Source of the DNA: a virus
Direction: 5' to 3' (one strand)
DNA length: 21,042 bases
IMG/VR virus record: IMGVR_UViG_3300045117_000042
Span: 1-21,042 of that record
Position 1 is the first letter of the stretch; each line of letters begins with the position of its first letter. Positions 469-21,012 of the stretch are shown one piece after another. Under the pieces are notes generated by a model. It searched no databases, had not been told where the DNA came from, and was given only the letters and a program-made list of their open reading frames with translations. Position numbers and translations under genes: made by a program.

Positions 469-1458
469 CTACGCAACGTTAGTTCCCTTGCTGGCTACCC
501 AGTTTCTCATGTTATTAGCACCTCTATCGTAGAAAGCTGTGATCTTTCTCTTATAAAGGTCTGTATCATATTCGTACTCTGGAACATCCATTTTTGGTCT
601 TTGTGACCATCTCCATTGAAGACCATAACGATCATTCTTCTTTGAAGAATCAAATGCAAACCAGTAAGCATCGTTATCTAGGTGCTTTAGAGTGATAAGT
701 TTTGGTAAGCCGACTTTTGCAGCTCCATCATTCTCATCACCTCCAGGAATATAGTTTCTTGTGATTGCGCCCATAAGTTCCTCATATCTGTCATGTACAG
801 AAGAACCATGTTTACAAACCAAAGTATCTAGTTCAATTCCTAGTTTTTGTCCACGACCATTTACGATCGCAGAAGCTGTTTTACGAGCAGCTTTTAGAGC
901 ATCGTACTCAAAATCCATATTAACAGTAGTTCCATCAGTTACTCTGTTGCCCCATGCTGTTCCTCCATCTTCTCTTGTATGAGAAGCTGAGAAATAAGCA
1001 ACGGCATCGCCTCCAACTGTTGATACTGTTTGACCATCATCATCTGTATAAGATGTTGCGAATCCATTGCTCAACATATCAGCTCCATCTGTTTCAATTT
1101 TCTCATCCATTGCATCCATCATTGCTTCTACCAAAGAAGTAATGTTTCTGAATTGGATTCCGAATTTCCATAGATGATCAGAGATCTTTAGTCCATCTCC
1201 ATATTTCTTTTGAGTGTAGGTTTTGTCAAATCCTTGGATTGGAGCATCGTAAAGAACAGAAGCGTTTTCTGAAATAAACTTTGCTCTCTCAGTTCCTACA
1301 ACTGAACTGTCTTTATCGTAATAAGAAGTTGTATCACTAACGTTGAAATATTGGTCAACTTTGCGTGGTAGTTCACTTCTCATTACAAATATGTTCTGTA
1401 TACTTTCATCAATCAAATCGCCAAATTGAGCGAGTGTTGCTGGTACAATAGGTGCCAT
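469..1458 (-). CDS. Major capsid protein (HK97-fold type)
   Basis: A 329-residue protein that would form the icosahedral shell. Support: its length; its position after portal, scaffold and decoration-like genes; and its composition. The N-terminal half is acidic and helix-prone (EAMMDAMDEKIETDGADMLS), matching the spine-helix region. The C-terminus reads ITAFYDRGANNMRNWVASKG, resembling the conserved P-domain ending of HK97-type capsid proteins, where an aromatic residue and Arg-Gly-Trp-type motif sit near the end. No N-terminal prohead protease or delta domain is visible; the scaffold is encoded separately at 1974-2711. The start is ATG in an A/T-rich leader with no Shine-Dalgarno sequence. 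Family placement rests on motif and synteny. Confidence 0.8.
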   Translation of the reverse strand: MAPIVPATLAQFGDLIDESIQNIFVMRSELPRKVDQYFNVSDTTSYYDKDSSVVGTERAKFISENASVLYDAPIQGFDKTYTQKKYGDGLKISDHLWKFGIQFRNITSLVEAMMDAMDEKIETDGADMLSNGFATSYTDDDGQTVSTVGGDAVAYFSASHTREDGGTAWGNRVTDGTTVNMDFEYDALKAARKTASAIVNGRGQKLGIELDTLVCKHGSSVHDRYEELMGAITRNYIPGGDENDGAAKVGLPKLITLKHLDNDAYWFAFDSSKKNDRYGLQWRWSQRPKMDVPEYEYDTDLYKRKITAFYDRGANNMRNWVASKGTNVA

Positions 1459-1484
1459 AAATGTAATTGGTTAAATAGTAAATA

Positions 1485-1919
1485 TTAAGATAATGCCTTT
1501 GGAGACTGTGAACCCACAATATATCCACGCATTTTTGAACTTGATACAACTTCAATATTTCTTACAAAAGCTGTAGCTGCTGTTGAAATTGTTGTTGAAT
1601 TTGCAACAGTAGTAGCATTAGTAAGATCATTTAGTTTTCCAAGTTGTCCTGATGCTGTAGCATTAGTACAATCGTATTCCCATAATTGTCCAGGAACGAT
1701 CGGAATAACTGGTACAGTTGTATCAGCTGCAGCTGGTGTTTTTACAGCTACTCCAGCGACATTGCATCCTAGCAATAGGCTGGTAGCAGGAATAACAGGA
1801 GAAACTGCGGCTCCTGTAGAAACATCAAATACTACAACACTTCCCTCTGTTACAGAGGAACTTGTGCCGCAATACATTGGCTGTGATTGGTCAAAGCCCT
1901 TAACACATTTGAAAGCCAT
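1485..1919 (-). CDS. Capsid decoration/stabilisation-like protein
   Basis: A 144-residue protein encoded 26 bases upstream of the capsid gene. It is rich in Thr, Ala, Val and Ser with almost no charged residues in the middle, suggesting a compact beta-rich fold. A distinctive stretch is VPVIPIVPGQLWEYDCTN. A small beta-rich gene immediately beside a major capsid gene is usually a decoration or head-stabilising protein (lambda gpD-like in role); this is synteny-based inference. It has no transmembrane segment or signal peptide. A minor head protein is the alternative. Confidence 0.6.
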   Translation of the reverse strand: MAFKCVKGFDQSQPMYCGTSSSVTEGSVVVFDVSTGAAVSPVIPATSLLLGCNVAGVAVKTPAAADTTVPVIPIVPGQLWEYDCTNATASGQLGKLNDLTNATTVANSTTISTAATAFVRNIEVVSSSKMRGYIVGSQSPKALS

Positions 1920-1973
1920 AATTAGTAAATTAAATAATAATATGTTTCCCCTTACAAATTACGGCTTATTAGA

Positions 1974-2711
1974 CTACTTTTTGTAGTAAGATCTATTTTG
2001 TAGAATCTTATCAAATTCGTCAGCTACCGCTTTTTGTTCGGGAGTTTGCTTCTTTTTAGGAGCAGAAGCAGATGCTCCTGACGAACCACCTCCTAGAGAG
2101 GCATTAAGATTAGCTTGCGCCATTCCTAATGATTTTCCTTTTTCTAGTTGTAACTCCGGTGTAGAACTTATATCTTTGTGCGCTTTCTTCAGTATGTCAT
2201 ACCATTTAGAAGGATCTTCTGGAACTTTGTATTGTCCGGCTTCCGCCATCAATTTGTCCCACGCAGCATCAGATTTTTCATCTCCTACCTGTCCGTACTC
2301 AGGAAATTCTTTTATGAATCTCTCTTTTGCGGACTCGGATTCTTTGGAGTATATCTGTTGCTGTAATTCTTCATTCAATGGTATTCCAGCTGCTCTAGCC
2401 AAAGCTTTAAAAGCTGCTACATCAGCAGGAGTTACCTGTGGATCATCACTTTGCGTCTGAACAGGTTGAGCTTTTAAGGCGTCCCGTTCATTTTTTAGTT
2501 TTAACGCTTCATCTTTAGAAGCCCTTAATAGCGTAGATTGTCTTGCGACTTTAGCTTCAAGTTCTGCTAATCTAGCTCTAAGATCTTCATCCGATTCCTT
2601 GTTTTCAATGATTGCGTTATCCTTATTGGGTGCAATTTGCTCAGTTTCCTCTTGAGCTGGAGTAGTAGGTTGTTCCTCTTGCGAAGTTCCTACATTTGTA
2701 TCTTCTGCCAT
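1974..2711 (-). CDS. Probable capsid scaffolding protein
   Basis: A 245-residue, highly charged protein. The N-terminal 40 residues are acidic and Gln/Glu-rich. Residues about 40-80 form a predicted coiled coil (LRARLAELEAKVARQSTLL). The centre is helical and acidic, a Gly/Ser/Ala hinge (LGGGSSGASASAPKKK) follows, and the tail is Lys-rich and basic. An acidic coiled coil ending in a short basic helix is the typical design of phage scaffolds, which bind capsid protein through the basic C-terminus. It lies between portal and capsid genes, the usual scaffold position. No protease motif is seen. The start is ATG. Confidence 0.7.
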   Translation of the reverse strand: MAEDTNVGTSQEEQPTTPAQEETEQIAPNKDNAIIENKESDEDLRARLAELEAKVARQSTLLRASKDEALKLKNERDALKAQPVQTQSDDPQVTPADVAAFKALARAAGIPLNEELQQQIYSKESESAKERFIKEFPEYGQVGDEKSDAAWDKLMAEAGQYKVPEDPSKWYDILKKAHKDISSTPELQLEKGKSLGMAQANLNASLGGGSSGASASAPKKKQTPEQKAVADEFDKILQNRSYYKK

Positions 2712-2757
2712 TTTTAATTAAATTATATTGTAATATGGATTGTCCTCATGGATTCCA

Positions 2758-3258
2758 CTATTCTATACGAGCTGTTGGTAATCTCAATCCTTTTCTCATC
2801 GCTGCACTTGTTATGTTTGCTATAACCCTTTCAAGCCATTTAATAGCAACGTTTACATCTTTTAGTGAATGCCATCTAACATCTGGAAACACTACTCTTT
2901 CCGTAATTTCATTGCCTTCCTCGTCAATCTTGGCTTTTCTTGTTCGGTTATCCCATACAATTCTTGTTTCTTCTCGGTACTCAGTTGAATATTCTTTTGG
3001 AACATCAACATAAATTGCGTATCCTCCGAAATCCTCTCTCCACTCTTGCCCAATTCCGAATTCATTCAGCCAGTTAGGAATTTCTCTTTCAAGGAATTCA
3101 ACTACTGGTTTTGGTAACTCTCTGTATTTAGTTACCGGTTCTACAGGTTTTGCTTGTTCTTGTGGATTTACCATCTGGGGAGCTCTACATCTCATGTTGT
3201 GCCCTCTCAGTTGTGGTACTGTAGCGAATTGTTTTCCACAATTTTCGCAGTTGACCAT
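2758..3258 (-). CDS. Zinc-finger (C2HC) protein in head operon
   Basis: A 166-residue protein opening with a clear zinc-finger signature: Cys4-X2-Cys7-X12-His20-X3-Cys24, with the aromatic/hydrophobic spacing (Phe11, Leu17) of classical C2H2 fingers but Cys as last ligand. A proline-rich linker follows (residues 25-45). The rest is a mixed alpha/beta domain with many charged and aromatic residues (NWLNEFGIGQEWREDFGGYA), then a basic C-terminus. I do not recognise the second domain. It lies between portal and scaffold genes and could act in head assembly, DNA binding during packaging, or host takeover. The start is ATG; no Shine-Dalgarno sequence is visible. Confidence 0.75.
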   Translation of the reverse strand: MVNCENCGKQFATVPQLRGHNMRCRAPQMVNPQEQAKPVEPVTKYRELPKPVVEFLEREIPNWLNEFGIGQEWREDFGGYAIYVDVPKEYSTEYREETRIVWDNRTRKAKIDEEGNEITERVVFPDVRWHSLKDVNVAIKWLERVIANITSAAMRKGLRLPTARIE

Positions 3259-3275
3259 ACATTTTTGGTTATAAA

Positions 3276-3422
3276 TTATTTTGCTAACATCCTTTTTTTA
3301 ATGATCATTTGACCTTTCTTTGCGGACTTAATCCCCATTCCAAGTGATTTTAACGTTGGTCTGTACTTAATGCCCTTTGAAGGCTTTGCTGTTCTTAAAC
3401 TGTAAGTTTTTAGAATCGCCAT
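3276..3422 (-). CDS. 48-residue very basic small protein
   Basis: ATG frame of 48 residues (MAILKTYSLRTAKPSKGIKY to KKRMLAK) filling the gap between the zinc-finger gene and the 114-residue gene. It has about 14 Lys/Arg and no Asp or Glu, so it is strongly cationic; a nucleic-acid-binding or internal head peptide is conceivable. The evidence for coding is the tight fit to the gap (10 bases to the upstream gene, 17 to the downstream start) on the operon strand. No family is recognised. Confidence 0.55.
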   Translation of the reverse strand: MAILKTYSLRTAKPSKGIKYRPTLKSLGMGIKSAKKGQMIIKKRMLAK

Positions 3423-3432
3423 ATTTTAATTG

Positions 3433-3777
3433 TTAAAATAGTATGCCGCTCGGTGTTGCCCTTAATCCCCCTGCTACTCCGTTATTCATGTATCTGTTCA
3501 CATCAATCGTAAAACATACTTCCTCTCCTTGTTTTATATCTTTTTCCGCTTTAACTATTACTCTCGCTTTACCGCTACTTATCTCTTGCTCAAGTATCTC
3601 TGAAAACAATTCATTCCCTCTATCTGCTGGCAATTCTGCTCTTACTAATGCTGCTAAATCTTCTGTTAAAACTTCCACGCTCTCTCCGCCAACAGTAAGC
3701 TTCAATTCATTTGGACCAACCCTGTCAACGCCCATTCTAGCCCCACCCCTTAATGATTGAATTGTGTATTTATTCAC
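3433..3777 (-). CDS. Hypothetical head-region protein
   Basis: A 114-residue protein of unknown function. It starts at a GTG that overlaps the upstream gene by 8 bases; an internal ATG (residue 15, MGVDRVGPNE) is an alternative start. The sequence suggests short beta strands and an amphipathic helix (LTEDLAALVRAELPADRG), ending in a Gly-rich tail (NNGVAGGLRATPSGILF). It has no cysteines or membrane segments. Translational coupling to the gene upstream and its place just after the portal suggest a minor head or connector-associated role. Confidence 0.6.
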   Translation of the reverse strand: MNKYTIQSLRGGARMGVDRVGPNELKLTVGGESVEVLTEDLAALVRAELPADRGNELFSEILEQEISSGKARVIVKAEKDIKQGEEVCFTIDVNRYMNNGVAGGLRATPSGILF

Positions 3778-3979
3778 GAGATATATTGTTTATTTCAGTA
3801 ATTATGTCGTTTAATGCTTCTATGTATCCGTCTCTCCTGCCACAATTGTAAGATAATTGCTGTGGATTCGGATTAAATGTTATTTCCTTGGATTTTTCCT
3901 TAAGATCATCTACTACTGTCTCTAACGCACTCCAAGCCCCAGAACTAGCCAAATTTTTAATAAATCCTCTGTCTATCAC
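3770..3979 (-). CDS. Small hypothetical protein coupled to portal
   Basis: A 69-residue protein whose GTG start overlaps the portal stop codon (GTGA, 4 bases) and whose end overlaps the next gene by 8 bases, so three genes are translationally chained. The sequence is mostly helical (ALETVVDDLKEKSKEI), with YNCGRRDGYIEALNDIITEI near the end. That last segment resembles short phage proteins found between portal and head genes, but I cannot name a family. The function is unknown. Confidence 0.6.
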   Translation of the reverse strand: MIDRGFIKNLASSGAWSALETVVDDLKEKSKEITFNPNPQQLSYNCGRRDGYIEALNDIITEINNISRE

Positions 3980-5994
3980 ATTGGCGGTGTTAATTGTGAA
4001 CTCAATCCTCCTGTACTAGCCGGCTGCTCTAATTCATTTGGTGGAACTAATGTTGGAGCTCCTTCAGTCTGTGGCCCCTCCGGCATTTCCTCGCCCATCA
4101 TTCCACCTTGCGCAGCCATAGCTTGAGTCATCATTACATCTTCTTCTGATTTCATCCATTCTTCTGGATCTTCATTTCTTCTCTTTAGTAAAGTCTTTTC
4201 AGCCTTATATATATCTGTATCTGGTAGTGGTGCAACAATGTTAAATGTCTCCAAAGCTCTTGACTCCTCTAATGATTTACTCATTGGAATCGTTGAGAAC
4301 GCTCTGATTCTAACATCGTAATCGCCTCTTATCTCATCACCTTCAATTCCTAACATAGAAGGAGTTACTTCCATTAAGTTATCTTGTTCGGAAGGCTCAA
4401 TTTCACCTTCGTTAGTCTTTTCAAAACTTAATCTTTCTTGTTTAAATTCATTTCTAAACATCTCTCCAGTAGCTTCGTTAGTTGGAAATTTCTGTGCAAA
4501 TTCTATCTCACTACCTTTTCCTTTCTCCTCTAAGTATTCATTTAATAAATCTTCATCAATAATGTTCCCAAAGTCGTCTTTTATAACTTTAGTAACTGAA
4601 GGCCTGCTATAAATTAATTGGATCATATCAACTCTCAATCTAGCGTGTCTTTCTAATGCAAATTCAACATTCTGCAAAGGTGTACTTAATCTTCTCATTC
4701 CTGCCTCTCTGTTAAGCACAGCTTCACCTAATGTTTTACCAACTTGTTCACCTCCTAGACTCTTGGTAACTCCAGAATGCTCATCAGCGGAATTTAATAC
4801 AAATTCAATCATGTTAAAGGTTGCAGCATCAGGACTTGGTATTTTTGGAAATATAATTCTTTCAGCATCCTTTAATTTCTTAAGTTTAGGCTCAAGTATA
4901 AGATCAGATTCAGTTACATTACTCGTACCTCCATAATATCCCGCACCTCCAATACTCAAATAAACTTGATTAAATGTAGTGTTTACTAACTTGTCAAGCA
5001 TGTTCTGTTCGTTCTCAAGGATCTCAGGCAATCCAATACCGTAAACAATCTGCTCGTTTCTAAGCTTCCACATTCCAGTAACGCAGCTTAATTGATGATT
5101 GATTAAAGGTTCTTTATAAATCAAAACCGTTCCATCTGTAATAATAAACTCATCGTCTTCAATATTCTCATAGAACCATAACTTAATTTGACCAGCTCCG
5201 GCGTTTAAGTCGTCAGAATGGTCAGCTTTATCTTTGTAATCTTTTTGAGCATTTGTTGGAGTAACATACTTAGCCTCCGGAAATCTCTCAACCGGAAACA
5301 TTTTAACAAATGTGGAATAATCGTATGTCTTTAAGAAACACCAATCTCTCATTGATTCCTCATCGTAAGGTTTAGCTCTATGGTCAAACCAGCAATCTCT
5401 TATAGGCAAAACTTCAAAATACGGTTCATCATGCTTAATTATCTCTTTGTCTTTAACAATATGCTTGCCTTCTTCTGGATCATAGCCAACTATATCTTGA
5501 ACAGTTTGCTTCTCAAATCTGTGGTATTCTCTACCTACAGCAAAACCATACTTAGCGATATTATTGATAAATTTAATCACTTGTTGTCTTCCTTGCCCTT
5601 TATCCCAACTCAAAGAATACAAAGCCTCTAAGATCTTTGTTTTCTTTTCAAATCTCTTGTTCCTAGCACTGATCTCAACCTCTGGATTCTTTGAAGCTAT
5701 AATTGAAACAGCTGTGTCAATCTTAGCTAAAATCAATGGAATAGAGTTGTCACTCATCCACGACATCATTTCAGCGTGCCAATACTTATGAGGTAAAGAT
5801 ACATAATCAGCGTAATTCCACATTTCTTCAATACTTCTAGCGTTAGGACTTACGTCATACTCATTGCAATTCAAAGAAGAACGATAAGTTTTTAACTCAT
5901 CAATTCTAGTCATCAGCTTGTTAACTGTATCCCTATCTTCCTGAGAAGGCTTGTAACTTGGTATCTTTGGTGGATCTTGTTGGTTTACCGGCAT
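3976..5994 (-). CDS. Portal protein
   Basis: A protein of about 672 residues that would form the dodecameric ring through which DNA enters the head. The N-terminus includes a conserved-looking WNYADYVSLPHKYWHAEM and helix-rich wing sequence. The centre has a long helix region (GLPEILENEQNMLDKLVNTT) followed by the HSGVTKSLGGEQVGKTLGEA segment typical of portals with a P22-like large architecture. The C-terminal 60 residues are disordered, rich in Met, Gln, Pro and Gly (MMTQAMAAQGGMMGEEMPEG). Length and position next to terminase support the call. I chose the ATG at 5994; the frame also opens at a TTG two codons earlier. A dedicated promoter lies at 6062-6090. Confidence 0.85.
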   Translation of the reverse strand: MPVNQQDPPKIPSYKPSQEDRDTVNKLMTRIDELKTYRSSLNCNEYDVSPNARSIEEMWNYADYVSLPHKYWHAEMMSWMSDNSIPLILAKIDTAVSIIASKNPEVEISARNKRFEKKTKILEALYSLSWDKGQGRQQVIKFINNIAKYGFAVGREYHRFEKQTVQDIVGYDPEEGKHIVKDKEIIKHDEPYFEVLPIRDCWFDHRAKPYDEESMRDWCFLKTYDYSTFVKMFPVERFPEAKYVTPTNAQKDYKDKADHSDDLNAGAGQIKLWFYENIEDDEFIITDGTVLIYKEPLINHQLSCVTGMWKLRNEQIVYGIGLPEILENEQNMLDKLVNTTFNQVYLSIGGAGYYGGTSNVTESDLILEPKLKKLKDAERIIFPKIPSPDAATFNMIEFVLNSADEHSGVTKSLGGEQVGKTLGEAVLNREAGMRRLSTPLQNVEFALERHARLRVDMIQLIYSRPSVTKVIKDDFGNIIDEDLLNEYLEEKGKGSEIEFAQKFPTNEATGEMFRNEFKQERLSFEKTNEGEIEPSEQDNLMEVTPSMLGIEGDEIRGDYDVRIRAFSTIPMSKSLEESRALETFNIVAPLPDTDIYKAEKTLLKRRNEDPEEWMKSEEDVMMTQAMAAQGGMMGEEMPEGPQTEGAPTLVPPNELEQPASTGGLSSQLTPPM

Positions 5995-6061
5995 AAACAA
6001 CTAATTAAGAAATGAATCTTAAGTAGCTGCATCAGTGGCTAGTCTACCTATTCCTACATTT

Positions 6062-6090
6062 ATTATACGCTAGTATCTGTGAAAAGTAAA
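6062..6090 (-). promoter_or_regulatory. Sigma70-type promoter for portal/head genes
   Basis: On the minus strand, TTTACT (6085-6090), a 17-bp spacer and TATAAT (6062-6067). The -35 continues as TTTACTTTT, as in the other phage promoters here. The predicted start of transcription is near 6055, about 60 bases upstream of the portal ATG. The leader carries GACTAGCCACT (6034-6044), shared with the region at 403-413. It would boost portal and capsid expression independently of the main late promoter. Confidence 0.75.
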
Positions 6091-6100
6091 TACAATTTAT

Positions 6101-6268
6101 TCAAAATTTAACACTTTCTAACATTTTTGTTGCGCTTACCGGCTTTCCATCTCTAAATTGTAGCGTCATTTCACAATAAGGATGCTGTTTAACATATTCT
6201 AAAAGATTGATCCAGCTCTGATCTACTTGTATAACTTTATCCAACGATGTTTTAACCGCTACAATCAT
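6101..6268 (-). CDS. 55-residue protein, YezD/DUF2292-like
   Basis: ATG frame overlapping the large-terminase stop codon (ATGA, 4 bases) and ending just upstream of the portal promoter. The sequence is MIVAVKTSLDKVIQVD then SWINLLEYVKQHPYCEMTLQ and FRDGKPVSATKMLESVKF. A short helix, then a beta strand, then DGKPV and a basic end is the layout of the small YezD/DUF2292 family of unknown function; I make this match by eye only. The tight overlap with the terminase gene is the main evidence for translation. Confidence 0.6.
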   Translation of the reverse strand: MIVAVKTSLDKVIQVDQSWINLLEYVKQHPYCEMTLQFRDGKPVSATKMLESVKF

Positions 6269-7635
6269 CTGTAAAGCCTATTATAATTAAACTTTTTATC
6301 TTTACGATACCAAGGGCTATCTGGATCGTTTTGGTAAACATTAACTTCTCCTTGAGTTTTAAGTATTGGCAATGGCGGCAAACTCATCAATCCATACCTT
6401 ATTGCGTCTGCGGCGTGATCTTCTCCAGCAGAATCCAAGTCTTCAACCTTCAATCCTTTAGCTATATCGTTGTAAACTAATGCTGGAATGGTTCTTATTG
6501 CATTTACACAATTCTCAAAGAAAACTATTTTACCTTGCAATAAGTAATCTCTAAACAGGTTCCAACCGATAATTCTCTCTTTATTGGCTGAAGTTATTGG
6601 AACTCCGTTCTCAGCAAAGGTATCATCTCCATCTTTACCAGTATCAGGACTCTTATCAAATACAGATGTATCCGCTACGGTATAGTCTATAACTTCATCT
6701 TCTGGTGTCATGTTGACTATTTCCTCAGCTAATGTTTTGTAAGTGTATCCAACTCCATAAAGTTCTCTATAAACATAAACATTACCATCGTAATCAACTG
6801 CTAACCAGTAAACGGCAGAAGGTTTGGCGTAACCATAATCTAAGCATCTGATCTTTGTCCAACCACTAGGAATCTCAAAGTATTCGCAAACGTGTCTTTC
6901 TGAACTCCATTCAGTAAAGTATTGGCCGGCAAATATATCCCAAGAACCTTCTCTATAAGCTTTCCTAAGCTTTTCAGGCAATTGTTCAAGTGTTCTTATG
7001 TATTCCTGGCCTAAGTAAGTATTATCCTCTACCCTAGCCCGTATAAACACAAATTCTTTCGGATCAAGTGATTCATCAGAAAAATCCCTATCTATCCATA
7101 ACTTTTTAACAAATCCGTGTCCAATACCTCCTGGATTACTAGCTCCAATAAACTTAGTATCAGGTATTCCTGGCCACCTACGCCTCATGTTAAGAAAATC
7201 AAATGTTTCTCTTGGATTCTTGGTAAGCTCGTCTACTAAAGTTGAAGCAAACTCAGATGACAAATATTTTGAAGGATCATCTAGGTTACGAAACGCTAGC
7301 ACTCCGCCACCACACTCGTCATTTAAGATAAATTCATGGTCAGATTTGTTTAGCACTCCAAGTTCCCTAGGAAATTCATACTGTATTTTAGACAAATGCC
7401 TTTCTCTTAAAGCCGGATAATCTTCACAGAACAATCCTATTCTAACCCCTTTTAAGCGATACTTCTTGTAATATCTCAATAAAAGCTTAATCCCTTCCCA
7501 CCTAAGAAAGTAACTCTTACCTCCTCCGGCTGCTCCGCCATAAAACGTGTACGTAAAATTATTTACAGCACGATCAGCCTCTAACTGCTTATCTTGAAAC
7601 TTACAAAATTCGTTGAATGAGATTTCTTTAGCCAC
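6265..7635 (-). CDS. terL: Terminase large subunit (packaging ATPase-nuclease)
   Basis: A 456-residue DNA-packaging motor. The ATPase domain has Walker A GGAAGGGKS (residues 33-41), Walker B LVDE (133-136) and the coupling motif GASNPGG (164-170). The RNase-H-fold nuclease has its acidic residues in RCLDYG (Asp266), TVADTS (Asp322) and EDHAAD (Asp410). The order, spacing and length are normal for TerL, so the protein looks intact. The start is GTG, 2 bases after the small-terminase stop; the nearby ATG is out of frame. It overlaps the next gene by 4 bases. Together with the portal it would drive DNA into the prohead. Confidence 0.93.
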   Translation of the reverse strand: MAKEISFNEFCKFQDKQLEADRAVNNFTYTFYGGAAGGGKSYFLRWEGIKLLLRYYKKYRLKGVRIGLFCEDYPALRERHLSKIQYEFPRELGVLNKSDHEFILNDECGGGVLAFRNLDDPSKYLSSEFASTLVDELTKNPRETFDFLNMRRRWPGIPDTKFIGASNPGGIGHGFVKKLWIDRDFSDESLDPKEFVFIRARVEDNTYLGQEYIRTLEQLPEKLRKAYREGSWDIFAGQYFTEWSSERHVCEYFEIPSGWTKIRCLDYGYAKPSAVYWLAVDYDGNVYVYRELYGVGYTYKTLAEEIVNMTPEDEVIDYTVADTSVFDKSPDTGKDGDDTFAENGVPITSANKERIIGWNLFRDYLLQGKIVFFENCVNAIRTIPALVYNDIAKGLKVEDLDSAGEDHAADAIRYGLMSLPPLPILKTQGEVNVYQNDPDSPWYRKDKKFNYNRLYR

Positions 7636-7637
7636 AT

Positions 7638-7922
7638 TTAATCGTCTAGCTTAAGAACTATTGATTCACCCTTGGAGGTTATGTCGTTCTCGCTTCTAGC
7701 TAACTTAGGCTTATGATATTCAAGTAATCTTTCATAATGCTCAATAAATTCCATTTCAGGTTTACTTAGTTCAGCGCCATTACTTAAATCTTTCAACTTA
7801 CTTAAAAAACTAAATCCACCATCTGTAACTAACCATCCAACAATATTATTCCATTGTTCAGTTTTAGCTTTTGGCTTTCCCTTCTGATTAGGATTTGACA
7901 CTACTCCTTTCTTGAATGGCAT
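7638..7922 (-). CDS. Probable terminase small subunit
   Basis: A 94-residue protein directly upstream of TerL. It begins MPFKKGVVSNPNQKGKPKAK, the basic Gly-Asn-Pro opening common in small phage DNA-binding terminase subunits, and ends in a helix-rich part with YERLLEYHKPKLARSE. The phrase LEYxKPKLAR recurs in small terminase-like proteins of many environmental phages (known by general familiarity, not by search). It has no ATPase motif. In role it would recognise the packaging site and pass DNA to TerL. Synteny is the strongest evidence. Confidence 0.65.
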   Translation of the reverse strand: MPFKKGVVSNPNQKGKPKAKTEQWNNIVGWLVTDGGFSFLSKLKDLSNGAELSKPEMEFIEHYERLLEYHKPKLARSENDITSKGESIVLKLDD

Positions 7923-7959: not shown

Positions 7960-8427
7960 CTATTCTTGTATTCCTAGTGCGTCAGCTAATTCAATAAAAG
8001 CTTTCATGTTTGTAAACTTATCCTTAGCTTTCTTGAATTGTTCTTTAACTTCTGATAGATAGTTTTCATCCATGCTTACTTCTATTTCAACTTGACCTTC
8101 GCTTTGTTCAAGTTTAAGCATTTTTTCGTTTAATGGAGCTACAAGTTTATTGCCTTCTTCTATGAGCTTCTTTTTTTCAGCTTCAGACTTTGGATCTTTC
8201 TTGGCTTCTAAGGCTTTTAGCTTTTCAGCGTAAGGTTTTGCTAATTCTTGTAGTTCTAGCTTAATAGCTTGGAGTTTGTCCATGTAAGGCTTTGTGGCTT
8301 TTTCTAGAACTTCCATTGCGCCTGAGATCTTTCTGATAGATTTTAGATCTGGCAAATCCTTGGGAGCAATATCCCCAACTAGGAGAGTTAAATCTACCAG
8401 TCTAACAGTCTTGAGCTTGATTACCAT
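7960..8427 (-). CDS. Coiled-coil protein, first gene of late operon
   Basis: A 155-residue protein, very rich in Lys and Glu (about 40 per cent charged). Residues about 35-110 are predicted coiled coil (AIKLELQELAKPYAEKLKAL), followed by VSMDENYLSEVKEQF and a last helix, MKAFIELADALGIQE. I do not recognise the family. The frame is open back to a TTG at 8490, but the ATG at 8427 is preferred because it follows the A-rich leader AACCAAACAAAAA seen at other starts. The gene sits about 110 bases after the late promoter at 8542-8570, behind a structured leader. Confidence 0.75.
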   Translation of the reverse strand: MVIKLKTVRLVDLTLLVGDIAPKDLPDLKSIRKISGAMEVLEKATKPYMDKLQAIKLELQELAKPYAEKLKALEAKKDPKSEAEKKKLIEEGNKLVAPLNEKMLKLEQSEGQVEIEVSMDENYLSEVKEQFKKAKDKFTNMKAFIELADALGIQE

Positions 8428-8454
8428 TTTTTGTTTGGTTAATGTTATCAGTAC

Positions 8455-8517
8455 TCCCGAGGCTATTAAACCCCGGAAGCTAAAACCCAAATCCCATGAA
8501 AAAAGCTAGCATCGGGA
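8455..8517 (-). promoter_or_regulatory. Structured 5' leader of the late operon
   Basis: TCCCGAGGC (8455-8463) pairs with GCATCGGGA (8509-8517): 8 of 9 positions, 5 of them G-C next to each other. The structure lies in the roughly 108-base untranslated leader between the late promoter (start near 8535) and the ATG at 8427. There is no terminal T-run, so it is not a simple terminator. It could protect the message or be a regulator target; this is inference. Confidence 0.45.
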
Positions 8518-8541: not shown

Positions 8542-8570
8542 ATTATAGCGCGGAATTTGAAAAAAGTAAA
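8542..8570 (-). promoter_or_regulatory. Main late promoter (sigma70-type)
   Basis: On the minus strand, TTTACT (8565-8570), 17 bp, then a perfect TATAAT (8542-8547). The -35 runs on as TTTACTTTTTTCAAA. Transcription would start near 8535 and read the packaging and head genes. It is back to back with the early promoter at 8584-8612: only 13 bp separate the two -35 elements. Confidence 0.8.
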
Positions 8571-8583
8571 TGCAAAAATTGTC

Positions 8584-8612
8584 TTTACTTTTTCCGAGGT
8601 TCGTAAGATAAT
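8584..8612 (+). promoter_or_regulatory. Early promoter (sigma70-type)
   Basis: TTTACT (8584-8589), 17 bp, GATAAT (8607-8612). Predicted start near 8619, about 19 bases before the ATG of the kinase gene. The -35 extension TTTACTTTTTCC matches the other phage promoters. The sequence after the -10 (ATAATTCATTCAGAT) closely resembles that at 12236 (ATAATTCATTTAGAT), so similarity extends into the transcribed part. Confidence 0.75.
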
Positions 8613-8637
8613 TCATTCAGATCACTTAACAATTCTT

Positions 8638-9111
8638 ATGGAGTTACCAAGAATAATAATCCTTGAGGGGTGCGACAAAACAGGTAAAAGCACTCTGGCT
8701 AAAAAATTATCAGAAGAACGCGGATACCAAGTAATTCACTTTGGCGTTCCGAGCGGCAACTGTTATTACAAGTCACTTATTGAGATACTGGACAGGTGTA
8801 AATTTGGGAGGATAGTATTTGACCGCTTCCATTGGGGGGACAGGGCGTATGTCGGGATAACCACTAATAAAGTTTTTCTAAGCAATTCAGAATTCCAAGA
8901 TATTGAGAGTAGATTATCCAAAGAAGGAGCGGAAGTTGTTTATTGCCATGATTCCATAAGAAACATTAAAAGGAGAATGGCTGAAGACGGGGAAAAATTG
9001 ATAAAACCCGAAGATGTAAAAGTTATACTAAGTAGATACAAAGATTTAATATCAAACACTAGATTGCCGGTTAATTACCATTGCATATCTGGTGAACAAT
9101 TTAACTTATAA
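8638..9111 (+). CDS. Thymidylate/deoxynucleoside monophosphate kinase-like protein
   Basis: A 157-residue P-loop kinase that would convert a dNMP to dNDP in the cytoplasm. Walker A is EGCDKTGKST (residues 10-19), the form typical of thymidylate kinases, where an acidic residue follows Glu-Gly. The DRFHWGDRAY segment is the DR(Y/F/W) substrate-loop motif found in TMK-like phage kinases. EDGEKLIKPEDV is near the C-terminal lid region. It is shorter than host Tmk (about 210), usual for phage versions. The frame extends upstream to a TTG, but that stretch contains the promoter; the ATG at 8638 fits a 19-base leader. It is the first gene of the early operon. A link to the ThyA-family enzyme at 11258 is likely. 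Confidence 0.75.
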   Translation: MELPRIIILEGCDKTGKSTLAKKLSEERGYQVIHFGVPSGNCYYKSLIEILDRCKFGRIVFDRFHWGDRAYVGITTNKVFLSNSEFQDIESRLSKEGAEVVYCHDSIRNIKRRMAEDGEKLIKPEDVKVILSRYKDLISNTRLPVNYHCISGEQFNL

Positions 9112-9113
9112 AT

Positions 9114-9311
9114 ATGGTTTTAAGAAACAGAATAAGGTATTACAGGATCAAAGCTGGCCTTAAACAGATAGAACTAGCCAAAGAAATTGGCCTCGGATTA
9201 ATAACCGTTAGGCAACATGAAAGGTGTGAACGCGACATAAAAGGGGAACACGTGGGTAAATACACCAAGGCGTTAGGAATAAGCCAAAAACAGCTGTTTG
9301 ATTTAGAATAG
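9114..9311 (+). CDS. Cro/CI-type helix-turn-helix regulator
   Basis: A 65-residue protein made almost entirely of one HTH_3 (XRE/Cro) domain. It starts RNRIRYYRIKAGLKQIELAK and continues EIGLGLITVRQHERCERDIK, matching helices 1-4 with the recognition helix in GLITVRQHE. It lacks a dimerisation or cleavage domain, so it is more like Cro than CI. It begins 2 bases after the kinase stop and is transcribed from the early promoter; a further promoter follows it immediately. A natural target would be the divergent promoter region at 8542-8612, but no clear operator repeat beyond the shared -35 elements is visible. Confidence 0.85.
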   Translation: MVLRNRIRYYRIKAGLKQIELAKEIGLGLITVRQHERCERDIKGEHVGKYTKALGISQKQLFDLE

Positions 9312-12202: not shown

Positions 12203-12211
12203 CAAATTCAC

Positions 12212-12240
12212 TTTACTTTTTCAAAGGATTGGAATATAAT
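12212..12240 (+). promoter_or_regulatory. Sigma70-type promoter for recombination genes
   Basis: TTTACT (12212-12217), 17 bp, perfect TATAAT (12235-12240). The last 15 bases (GGATTGGAATATAAT) are identical to the promoter at 15621-15649. Transcription should start near 12247 and read the zinc-ribbon, annealing, exonuclease and NinB-like genes. A leader of about 150 bases with hairpins follows. Confidence 0.8.
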
Positions 12241-12264
12241 TCATTTAGATTCATTCTACGATCC

Positions 12265-12306
12265 ATGGAAAGAAACCTTTCGGCAATTAAGCCATTACAA
12301 GGATAA
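12265..12306 (+). CDS. Possible 13-residue leader peptide
   Basis: ATG frame MERNLSAIKPLQG followed by TAA, about 18 bases after the predicted transcription start. It lies before a stable GC-rich hairpin (12332-12368) and the first main gene at 12399. That order (promoter, tiny ORF, hairpin, operon) recalls attenuation leaders. There is no run of a single codon to sense an amino acid and no Shine-Dalgarno sequence, and a frame this short can occur by chance. Confidence 0.2.
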   Translation: MERNLSAIKPLQG

Positions 12307-12331
12307 AACAAAACCAAACGTAGCGGAATCT

Positions 12332-12368
12332 AGGCCGGGAGAGTAATTCTCATCATTTCTCCCGGCTT
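12332..12368 (+). promoter_or_regulatory. GC-rich hairpin in leader of recombination operon
   Basis: GCCGGGAGA (12334-12342) and TCTCCCGGC (12358-12366) are a perfect 9-bp inverted repeat, extendable by a G-T and an A-T pair, with a 15-base loop. An alternative short pairing GAGA/TCTC inside the same segment would compete with it. There is no T-run after the stem (TTCCCTAATAAA), so termination would be weak. It is the most GC-rich structure in this AT-rich window and lies about 30 bases upstream of the ATG at 12399. A second small hairpin, GAAAG/CTTTC, lies at 12268-12281. Confidence 0.5.
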
Positions 12369-12398
12369 CCCTAATAAAACATTACTAACCGTAAAACC

Positions 12399-12611
12399 AT
12401 GAAAAAATGTATTACGTGCGGGGCGGAACTGGAGAACACAGATTTCTTCTGTTCTATTGGCTGCGCCTTCAAAGGTATCAAAAATGATGCCAAAAAATTG
12501 CAAGAAGCTTTTGAACTTAAAGATCAAGAGGATGCTGAAGATTTAGAATTTGCCAAGCAATGTGCGCGAGAAAAATATGAAATGCAATATTTTAATAATC
12601 CATCATTATGA
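12399..12611 (+). CDS. Small zinc-ribbon-like protein
   Basis: A 70-residue protein with Cys4-X2-Cys7 and Cys18-X3-Cys22 (KKCITCGAELENTDFFCSIG), a short treble-clef or ribbon-like metal site. The rest is a charged helix (KKLQEAFELKDQEDAEDLEF). It is coupled to the annealing-protein gene by an ATGA overlap. Small Cys4 proteins like this are frequent in phage recombination operons, often without known function. Start context GTAAAACC, no Shine-Dalgarno sequence. Confidence 0.65.
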   Translation: MKKCITCGAELENTDFFCSIGCAFKGIKNDAKKLQEAFELKDQEDAEDLEFAKQCAREKYEMQYFNNPSL

Positions 12612-15620: not shown

Positions 15621-15649
15621 TTTACTTTCTTTATGGATTGGAATATAAT
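15621..15649 (+). promoter_or_regulatory. Sigma70-type promoter for accessory genes
   Basis: TTTACT (15621-15626), 17 bp, TATAAT (15644-15649). It shares GGATTGGAATATAAT exactly with the promoter at 12212-12240, suggesting one was copied from the other. Expected start near 15656, about 19 bases before the ATG at 15675. It drives the run of small genes, the homing endonuclease and probably the tRNA. Confidence 0.78.
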
Positions 15650-15674
15650 GTTTTTGCATACTAACCAAGAACTT

Positions 15675-15818
15675 ATGAAAAATCAAAATCTAGAAAAACT
15701 TTTCAAAGAAAGTGGAGAAGGTAAATTTATTGAAGGGGCGATTTATTTAATTAGTAAAATAATTAACCGGAAACAAAATGGCAAACAAATATCACATCAG
15801 ATACAAAAAGAATCCTGA
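15675..15818 (+). CDS. 47-residue hypothetical protein
   Basis: ATG frame, MKNQNLEKLFKESGEGKFIE then GAIYLISKIINRKQNGKQIS. The frame is open further upstream to 15633, but that stretch contains the promoter -10, so 15675 is chosen. It overlaps the next gene by 41 bases. The central IYLISKII is hydrophobic but too short for a sure membrane span. No family is recognised. Confidence 0.5.
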   Translation: MKNQNLEKLFKESGEGKFIEGAIYLISKIINRKQNGKQISHQIQKES

Positions 15819-15933: not shown

Positions 15934-16034
15934 AAACATTAAACACAATCTGGTGGTATATGACTATCTTAATGAGTCTAATAGCGATAGGATTATTTCT
16001 TAACTTGGTATGGCCTACTACAATAAACCAATAA
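15930..16034 (+). CDS. 34-residue single-span membrane peptide
   Basis: ATGA overlap with the gene before. Sequence MKTLNTIWWYMTILMSLIAI then GLFLNLVWPTTINQ: one hydrophobic helix of about 20 residues (residues 8-28) with aromatic ends. It is followed 3 bases later by the ATG at 16038. Tiny membrane peptides are common in phage early regions, for example in superinfection exclusion or lysis control; no function can be assigned. Confidence 0.5.
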   Translation: MKTLNTIWWYMTILMSLIAIGLFLNLVWPTTINQ

Positions 16035-16037
16035 ATA

Positions 16038-16283
16038 ATGAACCAAAAGAAAACACTTGAAGAAGTAAGGCGCCCAAATATATTTGGAAAATCATGGAAG
16101 CAAGATATGGAAATATTGTTAGAGTTACGAAAAGGCATAAACTATATAATATTTGCCAGCGTTAAAGGGAATACCCACATAATTCCAGAGATTAAATTAA
16201 AGGAAATGTTACAAGAAGCCAGAACTCAAGCAATAGAAGAGTGTAAAAGAAATAATTTAATCAAATCACATGAAAAAGATTAA
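16038..16283 (+). CDS. 81-residue hypothetical protein
   Basis: Charged protein beginning MNQKKTLEEVRRPNIFGKSW and KQDMEILLELRKGINYIIFA, ending in a helix (MLQEARTQAIEECKRN). No motif is recognised. It starts 3 bases after the membrane peptide and overlaps the homing endonuclease gene by 14 bases. The overlap suggests the endonuclease either inserted here or uses this gene for translation. Confidence 0.55.
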   Translation: MNQKKTLEEVRRPNIFGKSWKQDMEILLELRKGINYIIFASVKGNTHIIPEIKLKEMLQEARTQAIEECKRNNLIKSHEKD

Positions 16284-19039: not shown

Positions 19040-19146
19040 ATGAGCAAGATAGAATAATTAAGTCTTTATCACTTTATATTTTAAAGAATGAAAAAGAAAA
19101 AGATAGAAAAGTTTTGGTTAAACAAAAAAGGTCCAAAAATAACTAG
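18958..19146 (+). CDS. 62-residue hypothetical charged protein
   Basis: MQNKKGDNRDKNEDFIWQTL then QKALRRIDEQDRIIKSLSLY, followed by a very basic tail (KVLVKQKRSKNN). Helical, coiled-coil-like. It overlaps 18851-19039 by 82 bases and the NinG-like gene by 59 bases. The heavy overlap lowers confidence; the coiled-coil pattern and plausible residue use favour it slightly. Confidence 0.4.
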   Translation: MQNKKGDNRDKNEDFIWQTLQKALRRIDEQDRIIKSLSLYILKNEKEKDRKVLVKQKRSKNN

Positions 19147-19507
19147 AAAAGGATTAGTAAAGAAACTAGATGCAGCCTTTAGTGAATTTATAAGAGAACG
19201 TGATAAAAAATGCGTAGTATGCAAGACAACTATTGACTTAACTTGTGGACACTTATTTACTCGTACAGCCTATTCAACTCGCTGGGATGAAGTAAACTGC
19301 CACTGCCAATGTCTATCTTGCAATTATATACACGAATCTAATCCACATCCGTTCTGTAGTTGGTTTATTCACAAATTCGGATTAGAAGCGTATGATAATC
19401 TCATTCAACAACATAAAACTATTAAAAAATTTTCTGATTACGATATAGCAACTTTAACACTTGAATACAAAAGAAGAACAGAATTGCTTAAAGATAATCA
19501 AATTTAA
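19088..19507 (+). CDS. NinG/Rap-like recombination nuclease
   Basis: A 139-residue HNH-like protein. After a basic N-terminus comes LVKKLDAAFSEFIRERDKKC, the standard NinG start, then Cys42-X2-Cys45, GH55 (TCGHLFTR), WDEVN (66-70) and Cys75-X2-Cys78-Asn79 (CQCLSCN). These are the zinc and catalytic positions of the lambda NinG (Rap) family, which cleaves recombination junctions. It ends with helices (YDIATLTLEYKRRTELL). It is far from the annealase/exonuclease genes but on the same strand, and completes the recombination set. Confidence 0.85.
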   Translation: MKKKKIEKFWLNKKGPKITRKGLVKKLDAAFSEFIRERDKKCVVCKTTIDLTCGHLFTRTAYSTRWDEVNCHCQCLSCNYIHESNPHPFCSWFIHKFGLEAYDNLIQQHKTIKKFSDYDIATLTLEYKRRTELLKDNQI

Positions 19508-19516
19508 CTGAGATAA

Positions 19517-19636
19517 ATGAGTAAATTATGTAAAATCATCTTAGGATTTGCAATTTTAGCACTTATAACCATTATAAGTATGAAAATCTTTATACAGATC
19601 ATTATTTGGATCTCCTTAATTCCAATGTTATTCTAA
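19517..19636 (+). CDS. 39-residue single-span membrane peptide
   Basis: ATG frame MSKLCKIILGFAILALITII then SMKIFIQIIIWISLIPMLF, nearly all hydrophobic after a Lys/Cys start: one long or two short membrane helices. It is the last plus-strand gene and starts 9 bases after the NinG-like gene. Its last bases overlap the candidate minus-strand terminator at 19635-19654. Function unknown. Confidence 0.45.
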   Translation: MSKLCKIILGFAILALITIISMKIFIQIIIWISLIPMLF

Positions 19637-19654
19637 AAAACTCCATCTAGAGTC
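19635..19654 (-). terminator. Candidate Rho-independent terminator
   Basis: On the minus strand, GACTC (19650-19654), loop TAGATG, GAGTT (19639-19643), then a short T-run (plus-strand A's 19635-19640). The stem is only 5 bp with one G-T pair, so strength is modest. It would end the candidate small RNA and any read-through from the holin gene. Confidence 0.45.
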
Positions 19655-19785
19655 GTACACATCTTATTTAGGCCTTGAAAGACTATGTACTAACTGATAA
19701 ACAGAGTTTTTACTCGTTACCGCGCTTATAGCAGTCGGCTAAAGTGATTATTTGCCCCGACGTTTGTATGAAGCTTCTCAGTTAA
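19635..19785 (-). ncRNA. Candidate structured small RNA (three-way junction)
   Basis: About 150 bases between convergent gene ends, transcribed from the promoter at 19792-19819. Closing helix P1: TAACTGA/TCAGTTA (19778-19784 with 19691-19697, 7 bp). Inside it are two arms: P2 GCTT/AAGC (19771-19774 with 19724-19727), stacked towards GTCGG/CCGAC (19757-19761 with 19734-19738), and P3 ACTC/GAGT with a 4-base loop (19704-19715). After P1 comes a possible GTACAT/ATGT-GTAC stem and the terminator. No open frame of note and no tRNA features (no TTCRA loop). The family is not recognised; a packaging-type RNA, an RNA decoy or an antisense regulator are possibilities. Confidence 0.45.
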
Positions 19786-19791
19786 CTTAAT

Positions 19792-19819
19792 AGTATATCT
19801 ACTTTGACGATAAAGTAAA
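19792..19819 (-). promoter_or_regulatory. Candidate promoter of the small RNA
   Basis: On the minus strand, TTTACT (19814-19819), 16 bp, TATACT (19792-19797). The -35 continues TTTACTTT as in the six stronger promoters; the spacer is one base shorter and the -10 is not perfect. It starts right after the holin stop codon and points away from any minus-strand gene in the next 200 bases, which suggests an RNA product. Confidence 0.5.
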
Positions 19820-19820
19820 T

Positions 19821-20084
19821 CTACTTATTCTTTCCTGTTTTAATAGTTGTTTCGTAATTCGTAAGGAAACGCCTAAGAACCTCAGCGATAGTTGACCAAA
19901 AGGCAACCAATAAAACAGTTAAATCTAATTCCTTTCCAGCTACCATTACAGTAAAACCTGAATCTGATAGCCAAACAGTTATAGCTGTTAATAAAGCACC
20001 AGCTAATGCTACAAGTAGAAATCTACCTGCTTTCAGTAAATCAACTTTATTAAGTTGAAATCTTCTTACACCTACTAATTTCAT
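19821..20084 (-). CDS. Holin-like two-span membrane protein
   Basis: An 87-residue protein. First hydrophobic helix about residues 18-38 (AGRFLLVALAGALLTAITVW), a short hydrophilic turn, then a second near 53-70 (DLTVLLVAFWSTIAEVLRRF), and a basic tail (ETTIKTGKNK). Size and layout match small phage holins, which form holes in the inner membrane at lysis. It follows the papain-like peptidase gene with a 10-base gap. Other small membrane proteins cannot be excluded; no named holin family is claimed. Confidence 0.65.
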   Translation of the reverse strand: MKLVGVRRFQLNKVDLLKAGRFLLVALAGALLTAITVWLSDSGFTVMVAGKELDLTVLLVAFWSTIAEVLRRFLTNYETTIKTGKNK

Positions 20085-20094
20085 AAATTTATGA

Positions 20095-21012
20095 TTAAAT
20101 TCTACCTAATTTGTCTAAAGCTACAATCCAGCGAACTAAACTAACACTTCCTATTGCTTTAGTAAATACACCTAATTTAATTAGAATTTCTTCTAAAGCA
20201 TTAGTACCTACAATTTCATTTAAATCCGACTTTGTAGTTATTAGTTTAGCCTTAATAGCCTTCTCAACGCTCACAGTTGCCCATAGAGGCACGTTTGCAA
20301 AAAAACCACTAGTTAGGTTCAATTCTTCAAAATCCTTCTTTATAACGAAAATATAGCCCTTCTTGTAGAATACTTTATTTTTAACTAGATCTTTTAAGTT
20401 AGCTTTCTTGATTTTATAAGTATTTGGATCTCTGCCTAGATAATTATCCACTACCATTTCATAAATATCTACATCTGTTTGCGTCATTCTTACGCAATGA
20501 CCGTAAGTACCAGTTCCAAATGAAGTTCCATCTAAAATTCCATCTTTATAGTCAATATTAAAATCCTTATTACCTGAATATCCCATTACTACAGAATATC
20601 CTTTTGTCAAAGCATCATAAAATAGTTCTGAATCAACATCCACCGCAAATGATAGAAGTTCTTGATTGTATATTCTGAAATAATTCTTACGTATCAAATC
20701 TACTGCATCAGAAATAAACCACCCTTGATTAGGATCAAGACCTAACTTAAGAGATTGATCGTAAATATCTCTCTGATCTTGCATAGACCATACTTTACCA
20801 GTAAGATCAGATACTGCTCCCATTGAACCGAATAAAGTGCATGAGTATCTTCCAATAGAGTTCTGATTATATTGAACTTTTAAATCAGAATACTTGAACG
20901 GAGATTTAGGAATATCAATTATCTCCGCTCCTAAACGATAGACATCTTCGTTTTCCTTTTCTGCAATTATTCCATAGAAATCAGCATATTCAGGAATTGA
21001 AAATTTTTTCAT
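20095..21012 (-). CDS. Papain-like cysteine peptidase
   Basis: A 305-residue protein with the layout of a papain/C39-type fold. Gln50 and Cys58 lie in YNQNSIGRYSCTLFGSMGAV (oxyanion Gln and nucleophile), His172 in GTYGHCVRM, and Asp189/Asn190 in MVVDNYLG, giving the order Q-C-H-N/D. Residues 1-45 form a possible pro- or structural segment. After residue 225 a separate helical region (VSVEKAIKAKLITTKSDLNE to VRWIVALDKLGRI) may be a binding domain. There is no signal peptide. Next to a holin-like gene it could be a peptidoglycan-cleaving lysin; a virion-associated or maturation protease is the alternative. The start is ATG near the right edge. Confidence 0.55.
   Translation of the reverse strand: MKKFSIPEYADFYGIIAEKENEDVYRLGAEIIDIPKSPFKYSDLKVQYNQNSIGRYSCTLFGSMGAVSDLTGKVWSMQDQRDIYDQSLKLGLDPNQGWFISDAVDLIRKNYFRIYNQELLSFAVDVDSELFYDALTKGYSVVMGYSGNKDFNIDYKDGILDGTSFGTGTYGHCVRMTQTDVDIYEMVVDNYLGRDPNTYKIKKANLKDLVKNKVFYKKGYIFVIKKDFEELNLTSGFFANVPLWATVSVEKAIKAKLITTKSDLNEIVGTNALEEILIKLGVFTKAIGSVSLVRWIVALDKLGRI

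Follow-up and report, generated by a model that had tools for sequence, protein, structure and literature searches.

The stretch of DNA analysed in this study (hereafter the window) corresponds to an entire IMG/VR record, a linear fragment of 21,042 bases. Its head and packaging genes lie on the minus strand and are followed by early-type genes on the plus strand, while two further minus-strand genes are found at 19821-21012 (Table 1). One of the latter encodes a 305-aa protein (20095-21012, minus strand) for which no match was obtained in Pfam, PHROGs, NCBIfam, the phage records or the IMG/VR patterns. The ends of the early and late genes converge on a gap of 184 nt (19637-19820). The preliminary description of this DNA had correctly recognized a non-coding gap between convergent gene ends, although it placed the limits at 19635-19819. 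It had also stated that no reading frame explains the gap, in agreement with the finding that no ORF of at least 20 aa lies inside it on either strand.

A related record of 45,187 bases (G001), with values of 62% for TerL, 56% for the portal and 66% for the capsid with respect to the window, was the single further phage with this junction in IMG/VR scans using TerL, capsid, YqaJ-like, NinG and G001 amidase sequences. It supplies the gene order missing from the window, in which late genes are followed by tail-type genes, an amidase-like gene (205 aa) and a small membrane gene, after which the late and the early blocks converge head-on. It must be noted that the labels amidase-like, in G001, and holin-like, in the window, were assigned by where the genes lie, how large they are and how their sequences read, without a family match. 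In G001 the ends of the 68-aa membrane gene (15933) and of the opposite-strand hydrophobic ORF (16112) leave a gap of about 179 nt, and the layout is common to both phages. In both of them the stop codon of the small ORF overlaps the A-tract of the hairpin described below, the late strand reads TTTTTAGAATAA, and about 100 nt of non-coding DNA precede the hairpin. Direct alignment of the two gaps was poor except at the 3' end, and no clear sequence conservation with G001 was seen in the 5' part. No relatives of the gap DNA were found in 50,697 phage records or in the fetched loci, nor were any found in protein searches from both flanking minus-strand genes or by comparing the portal and capsid proteins with the phage records. 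Alignment of the capsid against genome contigs gave no match and therefore no clue to the host.

Table 1. Features of the window and of the corresponding junction in G001.
Feature	Position	Strand	Remarks
Head and packaging genes	469-7922	minus	Capsid PF25209, P22-like portal PF16510, terminase large subunit
Early-type genes	about 8.6-19.6 kb	plus	Include NinG homologue (19088-19507), thymidylate synthase, M23 peptidase
39-aa hydrophobic ORF	19517-19636	plus	Last early-block gene; stop codon overlaps hairpin A-tract
Predicted small RNA	19635-19785	minus	About 151 nt; promoter and terminator hairpin, no ORF inside, no Rfam family
3' hairpin	19635-19711	minus	29 pairs, basal stem AAAAACTCTGTTTA/TAGATGGAGTTTTT, then T6
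Proposed closing helix, 3' arm TCAGTTA	19691-19697	minus	Inside terminator hairpin
GTCGG...CCGAC stem-loop, 5' part	19734-19761	minus	5-bp stem; arms 19734-19738 and 19757-19761
Proposed closing helix, 5' arm TAACTGA	19778-19784	minus	Also a copy of the clade start motif TAAC
-10 box TATACT of putative gap promoter	19792-19797	minus	Spacer 16
Palindrome AGTATATCTACT	19792-19803		Overlaps -10; possible operator
-35 box TTTACT of putative gap promoter	19814-19819	minus	Family membership
Palindrome AGTAAATCTACT	19814-19825		Possible operator overlapping -35; the two copies are 22 bp apart
87-aa membrane ORF	19821-20084	minus	Last late-block gene; holin-like by position; no family match
G001 counterpart of 39-aa ORF	L090:16112-16222		36 aa; positional

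Potential promoters were sought as TTTACTT and TATAAT separated by 16-18 bases, with at most one change allowed. Seven sites of this family were present in the window (6090-, 8570-, 8584+, 9313+, 12212+, 15621+ and 19819-), compared with 0.225 expected from shuffles, none of which, in 200, contained more than two. Six of them have a spacer of 17 and precede genes or operons. The remaining site (19819-19792, minus strand) is found immediately after the holin-like gene and points into the gap only. It is the weakest member of the family and a criterion restricted to spacer 17 would miss it. With spacers of 16-18, about 0.001 family site would be expected in the gap on the minus strand (0.225 × 184/42,084). 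A generic sigma-70 scan returned 7 sites, with 9.5 expected from shuffles, and does not by itself support a promoter. The same promoter is found in another related phage (L172), where, as in the window, it also occurs upstream of the portal gene. G001 contains no site of the family, so that a conserved separate promoter finds no support there. The preliminary description had placed a phage-type promoter on the minus strand just upstream of the gap RNA, and the overrepresentation of the family indicates that this promoter is probably real.

The promoter family also touches the annotation of other regions. The starts listed for the ORFs at 8557-9111, 7960-8490 and 15633-15818 lie upstream of or inside the region in which RNA would start from the promoters at 8584, 8570 and 15621; therefore, the true start codons are probably located further downstream, or the ORF is spurious. 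In addition, a second non-coding stretch (12203-12398, plus strand) has a family promoter at 12212 and includes, at 12321-12400, the most significant of all the window's folds (z -5.2). It would be either the leader of a 70-aa zinc-finger-like ORF starting at 12399 or another small RNA.

Two exact matches to the palindromic pattern AGTANATNTACT were found in the window, compared with 0.03 expected, an expectation that is generous given that the pattern was derived from those two copies. Their placement over the -35 and -10 boxes of the gap promoter resembles that of operators and suggests repressor control. The window also encodes a helix-turn-helix-like protein of 65 aa (9114-9311).

At the other end of the gap, the minus strand between 19711 and 19635 can be folded into a hairpin of 29 pairs in 77 nt, with a 13-nt loop, internal loops and a low G+C content (MFE -22.8, z -3.6). 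The U-run follows directly after the stem, T6 occupying positions 19640-19635. Among the eight most stable T-run hairpins of the window (best 8 of 58), it ranks first in energy per base and second in energy. A hairpin is found at the same place on the late strand of G001 (L090:16024-16113), where it is within the 4 most stable of 69 and reaches a z of -3.4 when fitted to 16026-16113. With the two hairpins placed foot to foot by hand, each of the 11 basal pairs is a standard one in both phages: 7 are identical, 1 has changed on one side and 3 on both sides. Two sequences do not have the power to prove common descent of the stem, but both phages clearly carry a terminator-like hairpin at this junction and on the same strand. 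The hairpin and T-run which the preliminary description had seen at the expected 3' end are, in this way, well supported.

Some properties of this hairpin are unusual. In a fold scan across the window with a fixed length of 80 bases the gap did not stand out, so the z value of the hairpin is valid only for the fitted stretch and together with its recurrence in G001. The hairpin loop is larger than a generic terminator scan accepts, and for this reason that scan detected none. The stem is long and A+U-rich instead of compact and G+C-rich with a short loop, and for this reason the hairpin is termed terminator-like by its layout. A bidirectional terminator was considered and, by this measure of folding, rejected: the hairpin is stable on the minus strand only, since several of its pairs are G-U and are lost on the plus strand, where it does not form. 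It shares with the intrinsic (Rho-independent) terminators of convergent operon ends the A-tract, the long stem, the U-run and the position at a two-operon junction, whereas its unusual length, low G+C content and one-strand stability set it apart from them.

The sequence features of the gap are best read as a short transcription unit: a promoter is followed by about 150 nt specifying a non-coding RNA, and the terminator at its end serves the late operon as well. We favor this reading with moderate confidence. RNA polymerase would start a minus-strand RNA at the phage-family promoter (19819-19792), the 5' end being set about 7 nt after the -10 box as an inferred position, and a DNA-binding protein at the two palindromes would probably control this promoter. 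The RNA would end at the long hairpin and U-run (19635-19711). The same hairpin would terminate the late operon arriving from the holin-like gene, and termination at this point would keep that operon out of the convergent early genes.

The strongest alternative to this transcription unit is that the operon simply ends here and that the promoter-like site is a stray one. The hairpin would then be just the late-operon terminator and the rest of the gap its 3' untranslated region, the promoter match would be due to chance or decay, and no separate RNA would be made. A terminator is indeed expected where two operons converge, and G001 keeps the place and type of the hairpin without conserving the 5' part and the promoter. 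However, the number of family sites expected by chance in the gap is very low, the palindromes sit exactly on the promoter, and the non-coding DNA before the hairpin has been kept in both phages. We regard a plain operon end as a serious but less likely possibility. The claim of the preliminary description that a minus-strand RNA of about 150 nt has its own promoter and terminator receives support in silico.

A further reading concerns translation. Shine-Dalgarno sequences are absent at the gene starts of the window, of G001 (L090-L092) and of L171, L172 and L173. The motif TAAC was found about 12-15 bases before the start codon at 16 of the 32 starts of the window and at 18 of the 32 starts of G001, with a background of about 7%. 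Across the clade it is present at 46-86% of the starts, compared with a median of 5% over 150 loci. No description of such a start motif was found in the literature searched. The 10-mer TTAACTGAGA, a copy of this motif, occurs twice in inverted orientation, at 19504-19513 (plus strand), before the 39-aa ORF, and at 19776-19785 (minus strand), at the 5' end of the predicted small RNA. The possibility that the two copies bound an insertion was rejected, since the gene order is the same in G001 and its gap is of nearly the same size. The second copy could belong to an unrecognized tiny ORF, such as a minus-strand frame of 19 codons opening with ATA, 15 nt past the TTAAC motif. We consider this highly unlikely: its frame has no ATG, GTG or TTG start, falls short of 20 aa and lacks a counterpart in G001.

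The preliminary description had gone further and had proposed a three-way junction in which the helix TAACTGA/TCAGTTA encloses two other helices, a layout that it compared, in architecture only, with that of the phi29 packaging RNA. Both arms of the 7-bp closing helix are present, but at chance level: 2 inverted repeats of 7 bp were seen in the gap compared with a mean of 1.33, and at least one was present in 63% of the gap shuffles. Its pair probability in the predicted transcript was 0.05-0.15 (at 37 C and 20 C), decreasing to 0.02 with the full gap, so that it represents a minority state. The GTCGG/CCGAC helix is likewise present, in a 5' part (70 nt) which folds no better than shuffles (z -0.02 in the window and -0.03 in G001). 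The matching region of G001 forms one irregular hairpin, at shuffle level, and no such junction. At an offset similar to that of GTCGG/CCGAC, G001 has the stem CCCTC/GAGGG, but stems of 5 bp say little about correspondence in such a stretch. With regard to covariation, which the preliminary description had suggested as a check and for which G001 was the only relative, both-side changes were found in the basal stem of the terminator and none could be demonstrated in the closing helix because the 5' part of G001 folds otherwise.

In addition, the TCAGTTA arm lies within the terminator hairpin, and the junction and the better-supported hairpin are therefore mutually exclusive. The junction fold is just 1.0-1.7 kcal/mol above the best fold of the predicted transcript at 37 C, and it would form first during transcription and then give way to the hairpin, for which reason a two-state reading is kept open. 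Taking together the existence of the helix, the small energy difference, its chance-level frequency, its competition with the hairpin and its absence from G001, we find it very improbable that the gap encodes a three-way-junction RNA of the phi29 type.

The comparison with the phi29 packaging RNA was dropped since neither the closing helix nor the 5' structure is supported. The sole likeness is the idea of a junction closed by the RNA ends, whereas in the candidate some 55 nt separate the 3' arm from the RNA 3' end and the 3' part is the terminator hairpin. No Rfam covariance model matched within the gap, and the packaging genes are of other families than those of phi29: the large subunit matches Terminase_3 and the PHROG terminase large subunit, and the portal is P22-like. 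The analysis in this way trims an over-reading of the locus, as the fold resembling a packaging RNA finds no support.

To our knowledge, only a small number of such RNAs have been described from virulent phages, the majority of them without a known role. The listed phage small RNAs include OOP of lambda, of 77 nt, and sar of P22, of 68/69 nt (PMC12197685), and OOP has been reported to have its own promoter (PMC12197685; PMC4933390). Phage PAK_P3 produces two abundant late small RNAs of about 100 nt, sRNA1 and sRNA2, and the band C and D RNAs of T4 are earlier cases from virulent phages (PMC4933390). The candidate would belong with this known kind, judging from its sequence: it resembles the stand-alone RNAs as a short RNA gene in a phage, with its own predicted promoter as in lambda OOP. 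It differs from them in its location at the convergence of the early and late blocks, in sharing its terminator with the late operon and in having no Rfam match. In this last respect, the gap gave no match at the gathering score, and relaxing the limit to E = 5 added none inside it; the matches up to that E value were chance matches to eukaryotic or eukaryotic-virus families and were discarded. The RNA, which the preliminary description had called possibly new, is new in the sense that no Rfam family matches it, and in that sense only.

Regarding its role, the predicted RNA would, on our reading, act as a regulatory RNA during infection, with the 3' hairpin doubling as operon terminator, and base-pairing with phage or host messages would be the most likely mode of action. 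In a duplex scan of 34 phage start regions none stood out as an antisense target (best z -2.4). A more elaborate possibility, to which we give little credence, is a clade-specific regulatory RNA with a repressor-switched promoter and two competing folds, in which the TAACTGA/TCAGTTA helix would hide the TAAC of the 5' end and the long terminator hairpin would free it. If true, such a two-fold RNA would influence translation in a host where TAAC takes the place of Shine-Dalgarno sequences at translation starts. With a putative promoter, a possible operator and a terminator, the candidate would be easy to test once the host is known, and a clade that lacks Shine-Dalgarno sequences and has TAAC in their place may be of more general interest.
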